DNA from: Chloropicon primus
Lineage: Eukaryota; Chlorophyta; Chloropicophyceae; Chloropicales; Chloropicaceae
Assembly (NCBI GenBank): GCA_023205875.1
Contig: CP060767.1
Location: 496,001 to 560,000, forward strand
Direction of reading: 5' to 3'
Length of the DNA: 64,000 bases
The notes under the pieces were generated by a model. That model ran no database searches. It was given only the letters and a program-made list of their open reading frames with translations, and was not told where the DNA came from. The position numbers were made by a program, and so were the translations under genes. Positions 15,586-34,575 of the stretch are shown piece after piece; the first letter of the stretch is position 1, and every line of letters begins with the position of its first letter.

Positions 15586-15833
15586 AAACGACGGTAACTA
15601 TATTTTCTTTAGCCCCCGACACAGACTCAGTCGGTTTCCAGTGAGAGAGGGGGGGAAACCGACTCAATTTACCGACCATGAAACGACGGTAACTATATTT
15701 TCTTGTGGCCCCCGACACAAACTCAGTCGGTTTCCAGTGAGAAAGGGGGGGGAAACCGACTCAAGTTACCGACCATGAAACGACGGTAACTATATTTTCT
15801 TTAGCCCCCGACACAGACTCAGTCGGTTTCCAG
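15586..15833. repeat. 95-97 bp tandem repeat, 2.6 copies, each with a hairpin
   Basis: Copies begin at 15586, 15681 and 15778 with the shared sequence AAACGACGGTAACTATATTT. Each full copy contains AGTCGGTTTCC, a purine-rich loop of about 15 bases, and its exact reverse complement GGAAACCGACT. A second short inverted pair (TTACCG/CGGTAA) spans the junction between copies. It fills the 367-base gap before the JmjC gene, so it could act in the promoter or 5' leader of that gene or at the 3' end of the RWP-RK-like gene. Confidence 0.85.
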
Positions 15834-26066: not shown

Positions 26067-28019
26067 TCATGGCGGACGGTTTTCGATTCGATCAGGAGCA
26101 CGTGCCGGGGATGCTGCTCCTCGGGCGGGTGGGGGCCTGATCAGGTCCAAATTCAATGGGATCTGCCTCACGAGATGGACCGGGGGAGGGGGAGGAGGAG
26201 GAGGCGGTGGTCGAGGGGCCGCCTGCCTGTCCGGCAGCGTGGAACCTGCCGATTGGGGTCCTGATCCGTCGTACTGGTACCTCGTGATCAACTTCGGAGG
26301 CCTCCCTCCGGTCCTTCCCTTCCTCTCCGGTGCCGGAGGCTTGAACGCGGGGGCGTAGGCTTTCCAATTGTTCTTGAAGGCCCAGTGAAGCTTGGGCTTG
26401 CAGCCTCCTGCCTCCTCGCTGCACTTGGGGCACGACTCCCTCTGTGCGGCCCCGTAGTCTGACACCTCCTTGAACTTGTGTCTGGCCTTGCAAGATTTGC
26501 ATTCCGCCACGTTCACTTGGCATTCGAGGACGCATTCCTCCTTTTTCAGATGCACCAGGCCGCTGAGAGCCATCGCTTTCACTGCAAACCACTCGATCTG
26601 GTCCCTCCTCTGGTTTGCGGGCCGGTCGCAGGTGTTGTAGTAGTGGTAGTGCCTCACGCCCTGTGCCCGGGCGACCTGGTAGCCGTACACAGTGACCCTT
26701 CTGCACATTTGCAGGCTCGCCAACATGCCGTAGAGCCCAGAGGTGGCTAAAATGCCTTGGTCCGCGAACACGGAGGACACGTGCTCGACGAAATCTGGGT
26801 GGAAGGCGAGGACCTTCAGCTCCGGGTCTCCGATTCTCAGCCGCTTCAATGCCAGGAGAGATGCAGGGTTCCTCATGTGAATCAGCACGGTCTCGTTCTG
26901 AGATTCTCTGAAGGCGAGGTTCTGCGAGTTCGTGATCCTGAAGGTCGTCTTTTGGCCGACAAGCCTTTCGAAGTTCACCGTCGGGGCTGAATTGAAGCGA
27001 AGGACCATCTCGTGCCGATCGATCTCCTCCCCGTGCTCGAAGTTGTGGTGGATCCCAGAACTTCCCACGATGGCACATGTGTTGTAGTACACATGCTCCG
27101 TCACCGGGTTGGCATCCGGAAGCAAGTCATAGAGCTCCTCATCCACAGTCCCGAGAAGCGTGCCGTCGTACGCTGCGTCTTGCTCCGCCTGCTCCCTTTT
27201 AGCTGCTTTGTCGTGCAAGAAGACCTTGATTTGCTCGCCGACGCCAAGGCTCTCTTTGGTCATGAAGACGTGTCCCGAGAACTCGTGGAATTTCTTGTTG
27301 CTCACGACTCTCAAGTGAGTCAGTGGCCTCACCCTCGAGCATCCCGCGCCAAAGCGAGTCGCCAGGCACGAGCAAGTGTTACCCCCGATGCAAACACCAC
27401 CCTCACCGCAAGGGCATTGATCTGCCTTGGTCTCATTGGATCCCATCACAGCAGGGGCGTTTCTCCGCCGCCTCCCCTGCTGCCCGTTCGTTCCACTTCC
27501 AGCGCCTGGCCTCGGTGGCGACCGTTTCTCCTTCCCGAACAGGTTTGCTTGGAGCTCCGCAATTCCGGAGGACAGCCTTGGCGATTGGTGCCTCGCCTCT
27601 GCTTGCTTTCTCTTCCGGTCACTCCTCCCGGCCTCCTTGTCAGCCTGCGCGCCGGCGGCACCGCCCCCGCCGTGATCGCCTCGACCTTCCAGGCGTGGCG
27701 GCTCGCCCCTCACTTCCATTTCATCACCCGTGGTGGAACCCCTAGCCGAATCCTCTTTCTGCCTCTTGTACTCGTCCACCTTTATCGAGAGCGACTCCCT
27801 CACGACGCTGTGCAGGTGAAGGCCCCCGCGGTGACTGTGCGTCTCGAGCGCACGGTGAGAGTTCACGATGGCAAAGAAGACGATCAATCCAAGAACTGAA
27901 AACACGACCACGTTCATGTTCGTCAAACCAAGAACGCCACTTCCAAACCTCTTCTTCCTCCTCCTCCCCCTCGTTCCCTCCCCTCGGTTCGGATTCTTCT
28001 CGCTCGCCATCATCATCAT
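26067..28019 (-). CDS. GT29 sialyltransferase-like protein with an EGF-like module
   Basis: 650 residues, starting in a run of four methionines. A type II signal-anchor lies near residues 31-52 (MNVVVFSVLGLIVFFAIV), then a basic stem. A cysteine-rich EGF-like motif near 195-230 contains CPCGEGGVC and CSCLATRFGAGC. The catalytic part carries sialylmotif L near 311-345 (CAIVGSSGIHHNFEHGEEID), motif S near 426-450 (TSGLYGMLASLQMC) and the HYHYYNTCD block near 456. GT29 enzymes transfer sialic acid or related keto-sugars from a CMP donor in the Golgi. A second cysteine-rich cluster and a proline-rich tail follow the catalytic region, which is unusual. The donor in an alga could be Kdo or another nonulosonate. 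Confidence 0.85.
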   Translation of the reverse strand: MMMMASEKNPNRGEGTRGRRRKKRFGSGVLGLTNMNVVVFSVLGLIVFFAIVNSHRALETHSHRGGLHLHSVVRESLSIKVDEYKRQKEDSARGSTTGDEMEVRGEPPRLEGRGDHGGGGAAGAQADKEAGRSDRKRKQAEARHQSPRLSSGIAELQANLFGKEKRSPPRPGAGSGTNGQQGRRRRNAPAVMGSNETKADQCPCGEGGVCIGGNTCSCLATRFGAGCSRVRPLTHLRVVSNKKFHEFSGHVFMTKESLGVGEQIKVFLHDKAAKREQAEQDAAYDGTLLGTVDEELYDLLPDANPVTEHVYYNTCAIVGSSGIHHNFEHGEEIDRHEMVLRFNSAPTVNFERLVGQKTTFRITNSQNLAFRESQNETVLIHMRNPASLLALKRLRIGDPELKVLAFHPDFVEHVSSVFADQGILATSGLYGMLASLQMCRRVTVYGYQVARAQGVRHYHYYNTCDRPANQRRDQIEWFAVKAMALSGLVHLKKEECVLECQVNVAECKSCKARHKFKEVSDYGAAQRESCPKCSEEAGGCKPKLHWAFKNNWKAYAPAFKPPAPERKGRTGGRPPKLITRYQYDGSGPQSAGSTLPDRQAAPRPPPPPPPPPPVHLVRQIPLNLDLIRPPPARGAASPARAPDRIENRPP

Positions 28020-28967: not shown

Positions 28968-29257
28968 CGAGGAAGCTTTTCCGACCGTTTCGCGCACGCG
29001 AAACCTTCACCACAAGGGAGTTGAGGGGACAGTCACGCCCTCTCCGCGGAAAAGGTTCGTGGCGGACGTCGTGCCGCCAGCGGCGGTGGGTGCGGTGTGG
29101 CGGACGTGCTGCCGGCGCCGGCGCCGGGGGGCTAATTAGGGTTAGACGCATTTTGAACGAGTCTCCCGTGGGTTTGTACGGTTTACGAAAGAGCCACACG
29201 ACACAAACTGACTCGTAGCGCAGTTCAATGCGTGGGGGCTCGGGGAAGCTTTTCCAC

Positions 29258-30136
29258 TCACGGAGGGGGCAAGCCCCCTTCCAACCCCCGCTGCAAGCGT
29301 GGGGGTTCGGGGGCCGTCAGGGCCCCCGTTAGGGCCCCCGGCAGCGTTGCTCCGGCCTCAAGCAAAAGCTTGAGGCACCTGGCATGACCATGATCTCGAG
29401 CATGCTGCACGGGCGTCAAACCTGCGCCGTTTGCCCTGTCCTTGTCCGCACCGGACTCGAGAAGCATGCGCAAGCACTCGACTTGGTTCTCCGCAGCCGC
29501 ATAAATAATGGGTGTGGTGCCGTCCACGTTCGCAATGTCCGGCGACGCTCCGACGTCAAGCAGAAAACGCAAGCATTCGATATGGCCGCCGCGGACGCAG
29601 AATTGCAGAGGGGTCATGTCACCACTCTCCAAGAGAGAGTCCTTTTCGGCACCGTAAGCGACGAGCAAACGAAGACACTCGACGTGGCCCCTCTCCGCAG
29701 CTTCGTGAATAGGGGATAAACCGTCAATTTGGACGTTCGGATCAGCGCCATGTTCAAGAAGAATTCGAAGACAGTTGGGGTGATCGTTGATGACAGCCCT
29801 CAGAACAAGCGTCCACTCATCGTCCCCATCGAGACCGGAGTCGAGCTCAATATTACCGAACTTCAACAGCACACGAAGGCAGTCGTAGCTGCAACGGTCC
29901 ACGCTTTCGTGGGCGGCTTCCAACGCATACGAGACGCCAACCTTGACCATCTTCTCAAGATGGTCGGGCATGTCAAACATTGCCAAAATGCGTAAGGACG
30001 AATCCCATCCGCCTATGTATGTGCGTGAGCGGGCATCAAATGAGGGTGAGAGAGCGAGTGCGACCCATTCCTCAAGCAACTCACGAATAACACGCCCCCT
30101 CCAGGGCTTCCAAACACCAGAAGAGGGGGGTGTCAT
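29258..30136 (-). CDS. Ankyrin-repeat protein
   Basis: 292 residues. At least five ankyrin repeats are visible from about residue 95 onward, for example NCLRILLEHGADPNVQIDGL, HVECLRLLVAYGAEKD, HIECLRFLLDVGASPD and QVECLRMLLESGADKD, each with the TPL/SPI-H-A pattern between helices. The N-terminal 90 residues hold degenerate repeats or a cap. Ankyrin proteins bind other proteins; no enzyme domain is fused. Its ATG overlaps the stop codon of the repeat gene by four bases (ATGA), which implies translation from a shared message or viral-type packing. Such ankyrin genes are abundant in large DNA viruses and in some protists. Confidence 0.8.
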   Translation of the reverse strand: MTPPSSGVWKPWRGRVIRELLEEWVALALSPSFDARSRTYIGGWDSSLRILAMFDMPDHLEKMVKVGVSYALEAAHESVDRCSYDCLRVLLKFGNIELDSGLDGDDEWTLVLRAVINDHPNCLRILLEHGADPNVQIDGLSPIHEAAERGHVECLRLLVAYGAEKDSLLESGDMTPLQFCVRGGHIECLRFLLDVGASPDIANVDGTTPIIYAAAENQVECLRMLLESGADKDRANGAGLTPVQHARDHGHARCLKLLLEAGATLPGALTGALTAPEPPRLQRGLEGGLPPP

Positions 30137-33100
30137 GCATCAATCATGGCAATCATGGCCTCGTGTTTCCTTTTCTTGTTCCGCAGCGAAACAAGCAGCT
30201 GGTGCGCTGCGCCCTCGTCGCTGCACGCCTTCAGCTTGGCGGCGAGCGTGCCGATCATGTTCATCAACTTCGCGTTCTCCTTGTTTAACACGGTCCGCAA
30301 CTCTTTGACGGGATCCAATCCCAGGACCGACAGAGCGTCCCCGCATGCGACTACCGCGTCCACAAACCCAGGCTTCAACATGCGCGACGCGAAGGCGTTC
30401 GAACCCGCTATCAGCACGCCGCCTTTGCCGACCATCTGCTCGAGCTCTTCAAGCACGGCGTAAAGTGCCTCGGGATCGTCGAACTTCGCCGCAACGCTAT
30501 TGCAAACAAAGGTCTGGAGATTCTTGATACCGAAGCGCGTCCTCAGCGTGTCGAGCACGGCGTAGAGCGCGTCGGGATCGTCGAACTTCGCCGCAACGCT
30601 ATTGCAAACAAAGGTCTGGAGATTCTTGATACCGAAGCGCGTCCTCAGCGTGTCGAGCACGGCGTAGAGCGCGTCGGGATCGTCGAACTTCGCCGCAACG
30701 CTGTTATTCACAAAGGTGATACCGAAGCGCGTCCTCAAAGTGTCCAGCACGGCGTAGAGCGCTGCGGGATCGTCAAACCTCGCCGCAACGCCTCCTGAAA
30801 CAAAGGTTTGGAGACTCTTGATGCCGAAGCGCGTCCTCAAAGTGTCGAGCACGGCGTAGAGCGCGTCGGGATCGTCAAACCTCGCCGCAACGCCTCCTGA
30901 AACAAAGGTTTGGAGACTCTTGATGCCAAAGCGCGTCCTCAAAGTGTCCAGCACGGCGTAGAGCGCTGCGGGATCGTCAAACCTCGCCGCAACGCTGTCT
31001 GAAACAAAGGTCTGGAGACTCTTGATGCCGAAGCGCGTCCTCAAAGTATCGAGCACGGCGTAGAGCGCTGCGGGATCGTCAAACCTCGCCGCAACGCTGT
31101 CTGAAACAAAGGTCTGGAGACTCTTGATGCCGAAGCGTGTCCTCAAAGTGTCGAGCACGGCGTAGAGTGCCTCGGGATCGTCAAACCTCGCCGCAACGCC
31201 ACCACAAACGAAGGTCTGGAGACTCTTGATACCGAAGCGCGTCCTCAAAGTGTCGAGCACGGCGTAGAGCGCGTCGGGATCGTCAAACTTCGCCGCAACG
31301 CCATCACAAACGAAGGTCTGGAGACTCTTGATACCGAAGCGCGTCCTCAAAGTGTCGAGCACGGCGTAGAGCGCGTCGGGATCGTCAAACTTTGCCGCAA
31401 CGCCACCACAAACGAAGGTCTGGAGACTCTTGATACCGAAGCGCGTCCTCAGCGTGTCGAGCACGGCGTAGAGCGCGTCGGGATCGTCAAACTTTGCCGC
31501 AACGCCACCACAAACGAAGGTCTGGAGACTCTTGATACCGAAGCGCGTCCTCAGCGTGTCGAGCACGGCGTAGAGCGCGTCGGGATCGTCAGACCTCGCC
31601 GCAACGCCACCACAAACGAAGGTCTGGAGACTCTTGATACCGAAGCGCGTCCTCAGCGTGTCGAGCACGGCGTAGAGCGCGTCGGGATCGTCAAACCTCG
31701 CCGCAACGCCACCACAAACGAAGGTCTGGAGACTCTTGATACCGAAGCGCGTCCTCAGCGTGTTGAGCACGGCGTAGAGCGCTGCGGGATCGTCAAACTT
31801 CGCCGCAACGCTGTCTGAAACAAAGGTCTGGAGACTCTTGATGCCGAAGCGTGTCCTCAAAGTGTCGAGCACGGCGTAGAGTGCCTCGGGATCGTCAAAC
31901 CTCGCCGCAACGCCACCACAAACGAAGGTCTGGAGACTCTTGATGCCGAAGCGCGTCCTCAGCGTGTCGAGCACGGCGTAGAGCGCGTCGGGATCGTCAA
32001 ACTTCGCCGCAACGCCTCCTGAAACAAAGGTTTGGAGACTCTTGATGCCGAAGCGCGTCCTCAAAGTGTCGAGCACGGCGTAGAGCGCTGCGGGATCGTC
32101 AAACCTCGCCGCAACGCTGTCTGAAACAAAGGTTTGGAGACTCTTGATGCCGAAGCGTGTCCTCAAAGTGTCGAGCACGGCGTAGAGTCGTCGCCGCAAC
32201 GCCTCCTGAAACAAAGGTTTGGAGACTCTTGATGCCGAAGCGCGTCCTCAAAGTGTCGAGCACGGCGTAGAGCGCTGCGGGATCGTCAAACCTCGCCGCA
32301 ACGCTGTCTGAAACAAAGGTTTGGAGACTCTTGATGCCGAAGCGTGTCCTCAAAGTGTCGAGCACGGCGTAGAGTGCCTCGGGATCGTCAAACCTCGCCG
32401 CAACGCTGTCTGAAACAAAGGTTTGGAGACTCTTGATGCCGAAGCGCGTCCTCAAAGTGCTGCGGGATCGTCAAACCTCGCCGCAACGCTGTCTGAAACA
32501 AAGGTTTGGAGACTCTTGATGCCGAAGCGCGTCCTCAAAGTGTCGAGCACGGCGTAGAGCGCGTCGGGATCGTCAAACCTCGCCGCAACGCTGTCTGAAA
32601 CAAAGGTCTGGAGACTCTTGATGCCGAAGCGCGTCTTGAGCGCCGTGAGGATGTCAAAGAGTTTCTCCGGATCGTCGAACTTTGCAGCGACGCCGCCGCA
32701 GACAAACGTGCCCAAGTTGGTTATGCCGAACTTGGGATCTTGCAACCCTTTGATGCTTTTCTCGAAGGCTCCCGTCAGGACACGCGAAGGCACTCCGGGG
32801 GTGGCCATGAGCTTTCGCGCCAGGTCGAGATCACCACCCACGAGCGTCGCGACGCGCTGCTCGGCGGCTTCAAACTCCTTGCTCATGCGCGCCCACACGT
32901 CCGCGGCGGCATCGTTGGCGGCGGCGTTGTCATGGTTGCTGCTCGGGCACGCCTTGGTCGCTGCAGCACCGCCTTGATGGATGCGCTGCGCGACGGCGGT
33001 CACAGCAGCTGACGCGGCAACGTTCGGTAATTGCGACTCGGTGACGACGACGAGCACGTTGTCCCCCACTGCGAAAGCTGCTCGAAGTGTGCGGCGCCCA

Positions 33101-33452
33101 CGCGCAAGCGGACCACGAACGCGTCAGGGAACATTTCGCGGAGCTTGGTCGTCTTGCGTTGGTCGCGTCCCACGTCGGAGTCGCCGTGCGTGAAGCCCGG
33201 GTCGTACTCGAACAGCACTTCCGTGCCATTCGTGAGCTTGAAGAACGCATCGGTGTTGTGGTGGGTCTTGCCTTCCGTCAGGTGCTTCGCGAGCGAGCGC
33301 CCGGTCACGCCCTGCTCAAGCAAGCCGTTCTCAAACAACAGCTGCGCCACATGCGCGACGTGACGTGTCTCGGCCTTGGACGCGCCGATCGGAGACGGCA
33401 CGTCGTAGTCGTCGACACGGCGGCGTTTGCTCGGCGGCGCGTCCGACGCCAT
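30133..33452 (-). pseudogene. Nuclease-like domain joined to a 34-residue tandem repeat array, interrupted
   Basis: Parts in order of transcription. First, an N-terminal part from about 33452 to 33060 starts MASDAPPSKRRRVDD (nuclear-signal-like) and carries FEYDPGFTHGD, RDQRKTTKL and FVVRLRVGA, resembling the E-D-K core of VSR/PD-(D/E)XK nucleases. Next come a variable linker and about 23 copies of a 34-residue repeat (32730-30436). Last is a C-terminal cap of about 100 residues with a helical, basic end. The reading frame is interrupted about two or three times, so in this copy it looks decayed unless unseen splicing or assembly error explains it. The nuclease assignment is tentative; the repeat array is certain. 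Residues 11-13 and 22 of the repeat carry most of the variation, with 17 also alternating R/K. Confidence 0.6.
30436..32730 (-). repeat. 102-bp coding tandem repeat, about 23 copies
   Basis: The unit is 102 bases, 34 codons, with consensus FGIKSLQTFV, xxx, VAA(R/K)FDDP, (A/D/E)ALYAVLDTLRTR. Between copies the change is mainly at residues 11-13 (SDS, SGG, CGG, CDG, CNS, NNS), at 17 (R or K) and at 22 (A, D or E). The first copy is diverged (FGITNLGTFVCGG), the one next to last-but-one lacks four residues, and the last grades into the C-terminal cap. Near-identity of the DNA shows recent expansion or conversion. Each unit should fold as two helices in a solenoid. Confidence 0.9.
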
Positions 33453-33615
33453 GACGCGCACCTCGAACGCGGTGATGCGGCCATTGCGAAGCGGCGGTGC
33501 GCTGCAGAAAACAAAAAAATGACGATTTTTTTAAAACCGGGACAGTTTTTACCTCCGTGTTTGTTTTCACCCACATTATCATTTGACGTGCACACTGTAC
33601 TACATCAATGCAACA

Positions 33616-33873
33616 ATGAAAGTCCTCGAAGAAACACCATTCTTTTCGGCGGAGAATGAAGGACACAACATCATTCAGCCCCCTCAAGTCATTGAAGGAA
33701 TATCAGCAGTCGACCACTCGCCTTACGACTTCGTTTTCGAGCACCTTGAAGGTTTATCCATCGAAACGCGGGTACTTGCGCTCTGCGTGGTTGCATCGTC
33801 AGTGCTAAGCGCGCTCACCTCATGGCGCATCCGTACAATCGAGGCGACTCGGCGACAACGGGCGCGTGACTGA
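33616..33873 (+). CDS. Small membrane protein, 85 residues
   Basis: Intronless, from ATG at 33616. An acidic N-terminus precedes one hydrophobic helix near residues 53-73 (VLALCVVASSVLSALTSW) and a short basic end (RRQRARD). No family recognised. It opens a run of three short plus-strand frames facing away from the repeat gene, across an AT-richer gap that may be a divergent promoter. Confidence 0.4.
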   Translation: MKVLEETPFFSAENEGHNIIQPPQVIEGISAVDHSPYDFVFEHLEGLSIETRVLALCVVASSVLSALTSWRIRTIEATRRQRARD

Positions 33874-33954
33874 CCGGATGGGCCCCCCGTTTGTTTCTGT
33901 AAGATGAATTGTATCGTTTGTTTCGTTTCTCTTTCTGATCCATTCAATTGAGCG

Positions 33955-34173
33955 ATGTCGACTCCTTTTGATGAAATCGTGAAGATCGTGCGGGACGAAG
34001 ACCTCGTCGATTGGCTTGTGTATCATGTCCCCGATGACCCCTTGGGACGCTTCATCATGGATGAACACCCTTACCTCGATTTTATACTGTCGAGAACCAA
34101 GTATAAACACAACAAAGTCACGTTCGCGTTGTGCATGGAATCGGCCCAAAAGCAATTGAGAGAACGTATATAA
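33955..34173 (+). CDS. Small hypothetical protein, 72 residues
   Basis: Intronless, 82 bases after the previous frame. It starts MSTPFDEIVKIV and contains DPLGRFIMDEHPYLDF. Composition is that of a soluble helical protein. The codon and residue mix looks genuinely coding, with no low-complexity sequence, but no family is recognised. Confidence 0.45.
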   Translation: MSTPFDEIVKIVRDEDLVDWLVYHVPDDPLGRFIMDEHPYLDFILSRTKYKHNKVTFALCMESAQKQLRERI

Positions 34174-34197
34174 AGCATCCGAAACAGGCCATTAGCA

Positions 34198-34575
34198 ATG
34201 TCCGTCGAATGGAGCGGTGGTGAAGGAGCGCGAAACCGCGGTCGTCGTAGTACGAAATTTTCGACCTTGGCCGTGACAGAGGAAGAAGATGCAAGTGCTG
34301 CCAAGGACGGTGACGTCGTATCCGTCTTCAGGACCCTGCGGCTGTCTCCACTCTATTGGACGTACGTGGCGGGCATTTTGCTTCATCTTGCATCGCTGAT
34401 CGTGTTAGACCAAGGAGATGAGCCGGAGCAGAGGATGGCCATGGGATGGGCCATGGGAGGAGGAGGGAAGGACGGAGGAGGGAGGGATGGGAGGGATGGG
34501 AGGAAGAGGGTGGGAGGCGTTGACTCTGCTTCCTCTCTTTTCAAGATGAACAAGGGTCACTTGGAAAAGGAATGA
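34198..34575 (+). CDS. Small single-pass membrane protein, 125 residues
   Basis: Begins 25 bases after the previous stop. A soluble N-terminus leads to one hydrophobic helix near residues 52-70 (YWTYVAGILLHLASLIVL), then a methionine- and glycine-rich low-complexity segment and a basic tail. No family recognised. The tight spacing of the three frames is unlike most neighbouring genes. Confidence 0.4.
   Translation: MSVEWSGGEGARNRGRRSTKFSTLAVTEEEDASAAKDGDVVSVFRTLRLSPLYWTYVAGILLHLASLIVLDQGDEPEQRMAMGWAMGGGGKDGGGRDGRDGRKRVGGVDSASSLFKMNKGHLEKE

Follow-up and report, generated by a model that had tools for sequence, protein, structure and literature searches.

A candidate family of coded-repeat proteins with enzyme-like heads in the green alga Chloropicon primus

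A 64,000-nucleotide stretch of the genome of the green alga Chloropicon primus (assembly GCA_023205875.1, contig CP060767.1, positions 496,001 to 560,000 of the forward strand; hereafter the window, which lies on contig 14) carries on its minus strand a gene for a protein built of nearly identical 34-residue units that differ mainly in a short stretch at residues 11–13. Near-identical units differing in one short stretch are a layout otherwise known from DNA- or RNA-reading proteins. Comparison of this gene with its relatives points, with a likelihood that we put close to even, to an undescribed family of modular coded-repeat recognition proteins composed of an enzyme-like head, an alpha-helical array and a C-terminal cap, with the layout of transcription activator-like effectors (TALEs) but not themselves TALEs. 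Judging from sequence, the family is probably nucleic-acid-targeting.

Variation within the repeat unit concentrates at residues 11–13

The gene runs from an ATG at 33452 to a TGA at 30135–30133 and encodes, in this order, a basic stretch (PPSKRRR) at its start, an N-terminal domain some 125 residues long, a linker, an array of 23 34-residue units (one unit of the window array being 4 residues shorter) and a C-terminal cap (Table 1). Tandem Repeats Finder reported a 102-bp period across 30452–32187, and its multiples to 32635. A first-pass annotation of the window, made from the letters alone, had described about 23 near-identical units that varied at residues 11–13 and, to a smaller extent, at 17 and 22. 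A DNA scan counted 23 units in the window copy, and 22 and 20 in two further copies on contigs 15 and 9, respectively. Fifty-two units were taken from the three copies (19, 17 and 16), with the last open piece of the window copy as the sole source of its 16. Their amino acids varied as described, the varying columns being 5, 11–13, 17, 18, 22, 29, 30 and 32–34, with the changes at columns 30 and 32–34 stemming from one terminal unit left in by the filter.

When the share of entropy within arrays was summed over 10 proteins and 78 units, including relatives described below (P0001 and following), columns 12, 13 and 11 ranked first to third, with values of 1.68, 1.07 and 0.74, and none of 20,000 independent column shuffles gave any column the 1.68 of column 12. 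Excluded from the entropy and pair counts were both terminal units of most proteins (the first only in P0001 and P0002, the last only in P0012), a shifted LRTRFGITFV unit, and the window copy, P0005 and P0008 throughout; the contig-9 copy was left out of the entropy counts and of the triplet tally. The first unit of P0011, which is out of register, was removed as terminal, and one unit of this protein missed by the search patterns was added by hand. The alphabet in these 78 units is narrow: D (37), G (25), N (15) and S (1) at column 12, G (49) and S (29) at column 13, and C (47), S (27) and other residues (4) at column 11. The resulting 12–13 pairs are GG and DG (22 each), DS (15), NS (11), NG (4), GS (3) and SG (1). 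In P0001, the four units that follow the first are identical save at residues 12 and 13.

Nonsynonymous (piN) and synonymous (piS) diversity were calculated from 19, 17 and 15 units of the algal copies. At columns 11–13 piN was 0.23–0.26. Columns 17 and 22 are taken up below; at the other 29 columns piN was 0.003–0.006 versus a piS of 0.14–0.18, and these columns are therefore held by strong purifying selection. A helical-moment estimate, which is rough and does not amount to a fold, found the consensus unit of six proteins to be amphipathic at residues 3–11 and 21–34. With the first helix extended to residue 18, the moment fell from 1.45 to 0.76, with the basic residue 17 now pointing into the hydrophobic face; the estimate thus favours a helix break at 12–13.

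The layout recurs in distant relatives

Relatives were collected by protein searches that scored about 8000 candidates each, and the list is hence a partial one. In branch 1 (P0001–P0006 and P0008), a window-type N-terminal domain is followed by array and cap, except that P0001 stops inside the array and P0004 is without its first residues. In branch 2 (P0007, P0009, P0011 and P0012), a different N-terminal domain precedes the same kind of array. The units are of 34 residues in the alga, P0001, P0002, P0005 and P0006, of 35 in P0003, P0004 and P0008, of 36 in P0007 and P0012, of 38 in P0009 and of 33 in P0011, and arrays hold 2–23 of them across the family. Outside columns 11–13, the branch-2 unit consensus has 23–37% identity to branch 1 and 23–33% to the window family; despite this low identity, the variable pair at 12–13 recurs in all four branch-2 relatives. 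The likeness to TALEs in unit length and in the place of the pair, pointed out in the first-pass annotation, is supported by this recurrence.

In the gene model of P0001 (1439 aa), the coded-repeat protein is preceded or followed by no separate start of its own but linked with an amine-oxidase region; the model is perhaps fused and truncated. P0010 (E 1e-4) was set aside as a relative, as it has another kind of repeat and its sequence looks bacterial. No relative was confirmed in IMG/VR viral contigs or in GTDB prokaryote genomes by short-peptide pattern scans, which reach mainly close relatives, and a viral and a prokaryotic origin were dropped on these grounds; none was confirmed in a phage search either. 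No description of the family was found in a literature search outside of which lay supplements, preprints and most subscription papers. The family appears to be undescribed and, by sequence, an orphan in the libraries searched.

Two kinds of N-terminal head with enzyme-like motifs

Ahead of the array, the first-pass annotation had placed a nuclear-signal-like start and a VSR/PD-(D/E)XK-like segment. The KRRR-rich start is present, and PPSKRRRVDD resembles a nuclear localization signal (NLS) in its pattern. In the branch-1 head, GK, TD, L.EYD, H, RD..KT and P.A...R.R are invariant in 7 aligned members, a pattern presumably that of Vsr/DUF559-type PD-(D/E)XK nucleases. PD-(D/E)XK proteins of the Vsr/DUF559/RAP type have an acidic core of the D...ExK/ExD kind with an H and RD/K signature. 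When compared by hhalign with E. coli Vsr, the branch-1 head was aligned at the expected RD..K..L site, at an E-value of 0.077 and a probability of 0.7%. The segment named in the first-pass annotation is thus present as a pattern of motifs only.

The branch-2 head presents the blocks G..PP..S, H.N.T, DW.D, AG..N and HP. Four of these (G..PP, DW.D, AG and HP) follow the motif order (motifs 1, 3, 2) of family-4 uracil-DNA glycosylases (UDGs), which was taken for comparison from PMC5387724, and are roughly collinear with them in a forced global alignment. The branch-2 head differs from family-4 UDGs in having D at the N of their motif 3 and in its fusion to a repeat array. With Mug it was aligned at motif 1 (E 0.1, probability 0.6%). 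The invariant polar residues of both heads look enzymatic, and such enzyme-like motifs suggest a nucleic-acid target.

Evidence against nucleic-acid reading and a protein-binding alternative

A number of observations weigh against a family of coded-repeat recognition proteins. Both head assignments, PD-(D/E)XK nuclease and glycosylase, fall short of significance. No Pfam or NCBIfam match was above the cut-off for the branch-1 head (6 and 7 pieces, respectively) or for the branch-2 head (4 pieces each), the best PHROGs matches were at E 0.16 for branch 1 (7 pieces) and 0.036 for branch 2 (4 pieces), and 13 of 200 shuffles were as good as the branch-2 head in its forced global alignment with family-4 UDG. 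As to the repeat, column 12 ranks only 5th in the contig-15 copy and 6th in P0006, P0012 yields just 3 units with 15 ties, and the unit-finder patterns nearly always required G or S at column 13, so that the alphabet counted there is a trimmed one. In the alga, variation at columns 17 and 22 is as high as at 11–13 (piN 0.25–0.27), piN/piS within columns 11–13 is 0.42–0.48, and zero lies within the bootstrap interval that the window copy gives for piN at 11–13 minus piS at the other columns; for these three reasons, positive selection at 11–13 is not demonstrated. Moreover, the arrays are neutral to slightly acidic, with a net charge per unit of -1.0 to +0.75, which does not favour nucleic-acid binding, and D, N, G and S are each often found capping helices, an innocent explanation for the narrow alphabet. 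The combination of a TALE-like layout with a nuclease-like partner is our working hypothesis, which the conservation among relatives and the second enzyme-like partner strengthen, and which is weakened by the charge of the arrays and the failed head tests.

The main alternative, which we consider unlikely although it deserves serious weight, is a protein-binding or structural alpha-solenoid in which residues 11–13 lie at a helix cap, drift among D, N, G and S is tolerated there, and the rest of the unit is homogenised by unequal exchange. The N-cap-like alphabet, the piN/piS below 1 at 11–13, the charge of the arrays and the variation at other tolerant columns (17 and 22) all suit such a solenoid, as does an ankyrin-repeat gene that adjoins the repeat gene, ankyrin being protein-binding. 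It sits less well with the presence of the same columns among the variable ones in relatives with 23–33% unit-consensus identity and with a column-12 share that no shuffle reached, and under drift one would not expect each homogenised array to retain several D/N/G x G/S pairs side by side.

Relation to TALEs and to other helical repeats

In a search of the PDB with a three-repeat profile from 9 relatives, the best match was the TAL effector chain 3ugm, at E 7e-4 for the whole chain, which speaks for a eukaryotic TALE by true descent. However, no single stretch of this match was beyond the cut-off, and the alignment paired the TALE variable residues, at what we take to be their position in 3ugm, with family columns 17–18 and not with 12–13. 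A column-permuted control profile matched a designer PPR at E 2.9e-11, and a second permutation matched nothing up to E 10. As the permuted control outscored the real match, the E-values of the repeat profile are untrustworthy, and kinship with TALEs by profile was rejected. The TALE Pfam family was also absent from the Pfam matches listed for the repeat proteins (for one set, the best 25 of 84 families). We regard descent from TALEs as very improbable; the first-pass suggestion that the repeats are unrelated in sequence to TALEs is supported, with no credible kinship among the Pfam matches listed or in control-checked PDB profile searches.

The family shares with TAL effectors and TALE-likes (RipTAL, Bat/BurrH, MOrTL) the near-identical units of about 34 residues, the variation at 12–13 and arrays that differ between close copies. 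The window gene has tandem units within the 33–35 residues of TALEs and the hypervariable 12–13, its relatives spanning 33–38, and credible sequence similarity to TALE units was not found. In TALE units the variable pair is followed by GG, whereas here it is followed by VAA. The family further differs from TALEs in its D/N/G x G/S alphabet, its enzyme-like N-terminal head, its eukaryotic occurrence, its wider range of unit lengths and its arrays of 2–23 units. In TALEs, the specificity residues sit in the linker between helices (PMC5472282).

Pfam matches to the array itself (DUF4113 at 5e-32, YAcAr at 2e-28, and others) were rejected as sums of small matches along the array: for the strong ones named, not one individual stretch reaches even E 1, and which families are matched changes from relative to relative. 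Repeat arrays of this kind draw doubtful names, such as "predicted methyltransferase" for P0003 or DUF4113 on the window array, which constitutes a hazard for automatic annotation.

Tandem helical units are likewise a feature of pTERF/mTERF proteins. pTERF binds DNA with motifs that depend on the arrangement, and no head of either kind is mentioned in the section of that work drawn on here (Hu et al. 2024, PMC11417379). No mTERF motif (PF02536) was among the Pfam matches listed for the repeat proteins, and four mTERF matches elsewhere in the genome served as a positive control.

A distant relationship to OPR/HPR-RAP (FASTK-type) proteins would imply helical repeats on single-stranded RNA, a RAP-like domain and an organelle RNA target. 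The RAP domain has a restriction-endonuclease-like fold, and RAP and Vsr-type folds are related. RAP-domain proteins were the second and third PDB matches of the same profile (E 0.27 and 0.33), sharing L..FM...VA.R..D...L, a weak local resemblance of the repeats, from a profile whose E-values proved unreliable. Comparison of the branch-1 head (A7) with the RAP profile gave no usable alignment, and 186 of 200 shuffles scored as high. The domain order is also reversed, the head being N-terminal here and RAP C-terminal in both C. primus RAP proteins; the unit motif is a different one, profile support was not found, neither a C-terminal RAP domain nor OPR/HPR units were found, and the NLS-like start does not suit an organelle target. 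We therefore hold this relationship to be improbable. The family should not be filed as TALE, mTERF, OPR/RAP protein or proven nuclease.

Three copies in the C. primus genome

The genome searched comprises 17,584,162 bases in 20 contigs. Apart from the window copy it contains two open copies, an open reading frame (ORF) of 1094 aa on contig 15 and one of 1019 aa on contig 9, so the gene is not a mere relic, a possibility that the first-pass annotation had raised. No further copies were found with the array, the N-terminal domain, P0008 and P0011 as queries. The two or three interruptions reported for the window copy proved to be three, separating four open pieces (33461–33000, 33069–32452, 32455–32099 and 32214–30133). 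The first lies in the last part of the N-terminal domain, with the first mismatch to the other copies at nucleotide 391 of the gene, and the second and third are two units that are cut short, with spacings of 85 and 83 bp. These interruptions may be real decay or assembly error.

Table 1. Features of the coded-repeat gene and of the duplicated segment (window coordinates)
Feature	Position	Strand	Basis or remark
Segment common to contigs 14 and 9	29101..34365	.	Alignment of copies
Part of that segment also on contig 15	29763..33471	.	Alignment of copies
Ankyrin-repeat ORF, 292 aa	29258..30136	-	ATG overlaps stop of repeat gene
Coded-repeat gene, window copy	30133..33452	-	Frame interrupted three times
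Basic NLS-like stretch PPSKRRRVDD	33408..33437	-	Read directly from sequence
N-terminal domain, PD-(D/E)XK/VSR-like by motif pattern	33042..33419	-	Coordinates transferred from contig-15 copy
Linker, N-terminal domain to array	32731..33041	-	
Array, 23 units of 34 residues, residues 11–13 variable	30433..32730	-	
Truncated units in the array	within 32106–32272 and 32373–32542	-	
C-terminal cap (FASRM...KLM), kept in relatives	30133..30432	-	

The flanks on contigs 14 and 9 are base-for-base identical for 913 bp upstream of the start codon and 1032 bp downstream of the stop. On contig 15, identity beyond the gene stops after 19 bp on the upstream side and 370 bp on the downstream side. The contig-9 and contig-15 copies agree throughout the first 740 and the last 675 nucleotides of the gene; all their differences fall inside the array, in the number of units and in their types and order. 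At unit 8, for instance, one copy carries DG where the other carries GG. This confinement indicates that the array changes and the rest of the gene stands still.

The ankyrin ORF accompanies the repeat gene on contig 9 and is truncated on contig 15, because only 370 bp downstream are common there. In the window (30133–30136) and on contig 9, its start codon and the stop codon of the repeat gene overlap in an ATGA, which is unusual for a eukaryote; the two genes may form a dicistronic or a fused unit. The duplicated segment, of 5.3 kb, also contains two small ORFs on the plus strand (96 and 72 aa; 33583–34173) that are oriented divergently from the repeat gene, and no Pfam match at E 0.01 was found for either. 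At the ends of the segment, short ACGTCC direct repeats were seen by eye, together with, in the window, a CCGCCAC motif on either side.

Three near-identical copies, one of them broken, and the ankyrin gene carried along could also indicate a recently amplified, partly decaying block of selfish or viral-derived nature without cellular function, with array changes due to replication slippage. On contig 14, inspection by eye showed a direct repeat of 7 bp on the two sides of the block, against only 3 bp on contig 9. A mobile element was dropped as a candidate since ends common to all three copies were not found. Such a block is decidedly improbable given this absence, the outcome of the IMG/VR and phage searches above, the strong purifying selection on the unit and the retention of the full architecture in distant relatives.

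Other features of the window

A minus-strand ORF of 4485 aa at 100–13557 matches 8 TIG domains, 2 G8 domains and a CEMIP beta-helix, and is presumably a giant fibrocystin-like protein. At 26067–28019 there is a sialyltransferase-like (GT29) protein with a cysteine-rich stretch, here in a green alga. A 96-bp unit is repeated 2.6 times at 15586–15833, where an RWP-RK ORF lies on one side and a cupin-like ORF on the other.

Proposed mode of action and implications

If the coded-repeat reading is right, each unit would comprise a helix at residues 3–11, a break at 12–13, a short helix and a second helix at 21–34, an arrangement comparable to that of TALE units. Residues 12–13, together with 11, would contact a single position along a target polymer, which is most likely a nucleic acid, and the string of 12–13 pairs, with GG, DG, DS and NS as the common four, would spell that target. 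The array would place the head on it, which in the window type would be a PD-(D/E)XK-like nuclease and in the second type a glycosylase-like domain, and recombination of repeats, in altering the array, would alter the target. The strongest form of this proposal is possible but somewhat doubtful: that these are natural eukaryotic sequence-programmable nucleic-acid enzymes, which evolved apart from TALEs and join a one-unit-one-base array with a new 11–13 code (GG, DG, DS, NS) to a PD-(D/E)XK nuclease or a base glycosylase.

Should the 12–13 pairs read a polymer, modular sequence recognition would have been solved independently in a eukaryote, by proteins that already carry enzyme heads. The family would then offer a natural test of the number of codes that evolution can build on helical repeats, and would be a candidate for a programmable tool. 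If the arrays instead bind protein, this would still be a repeat family without a name that keeps its main variable site in the same place over deep divergence, which makes its function directly testable.

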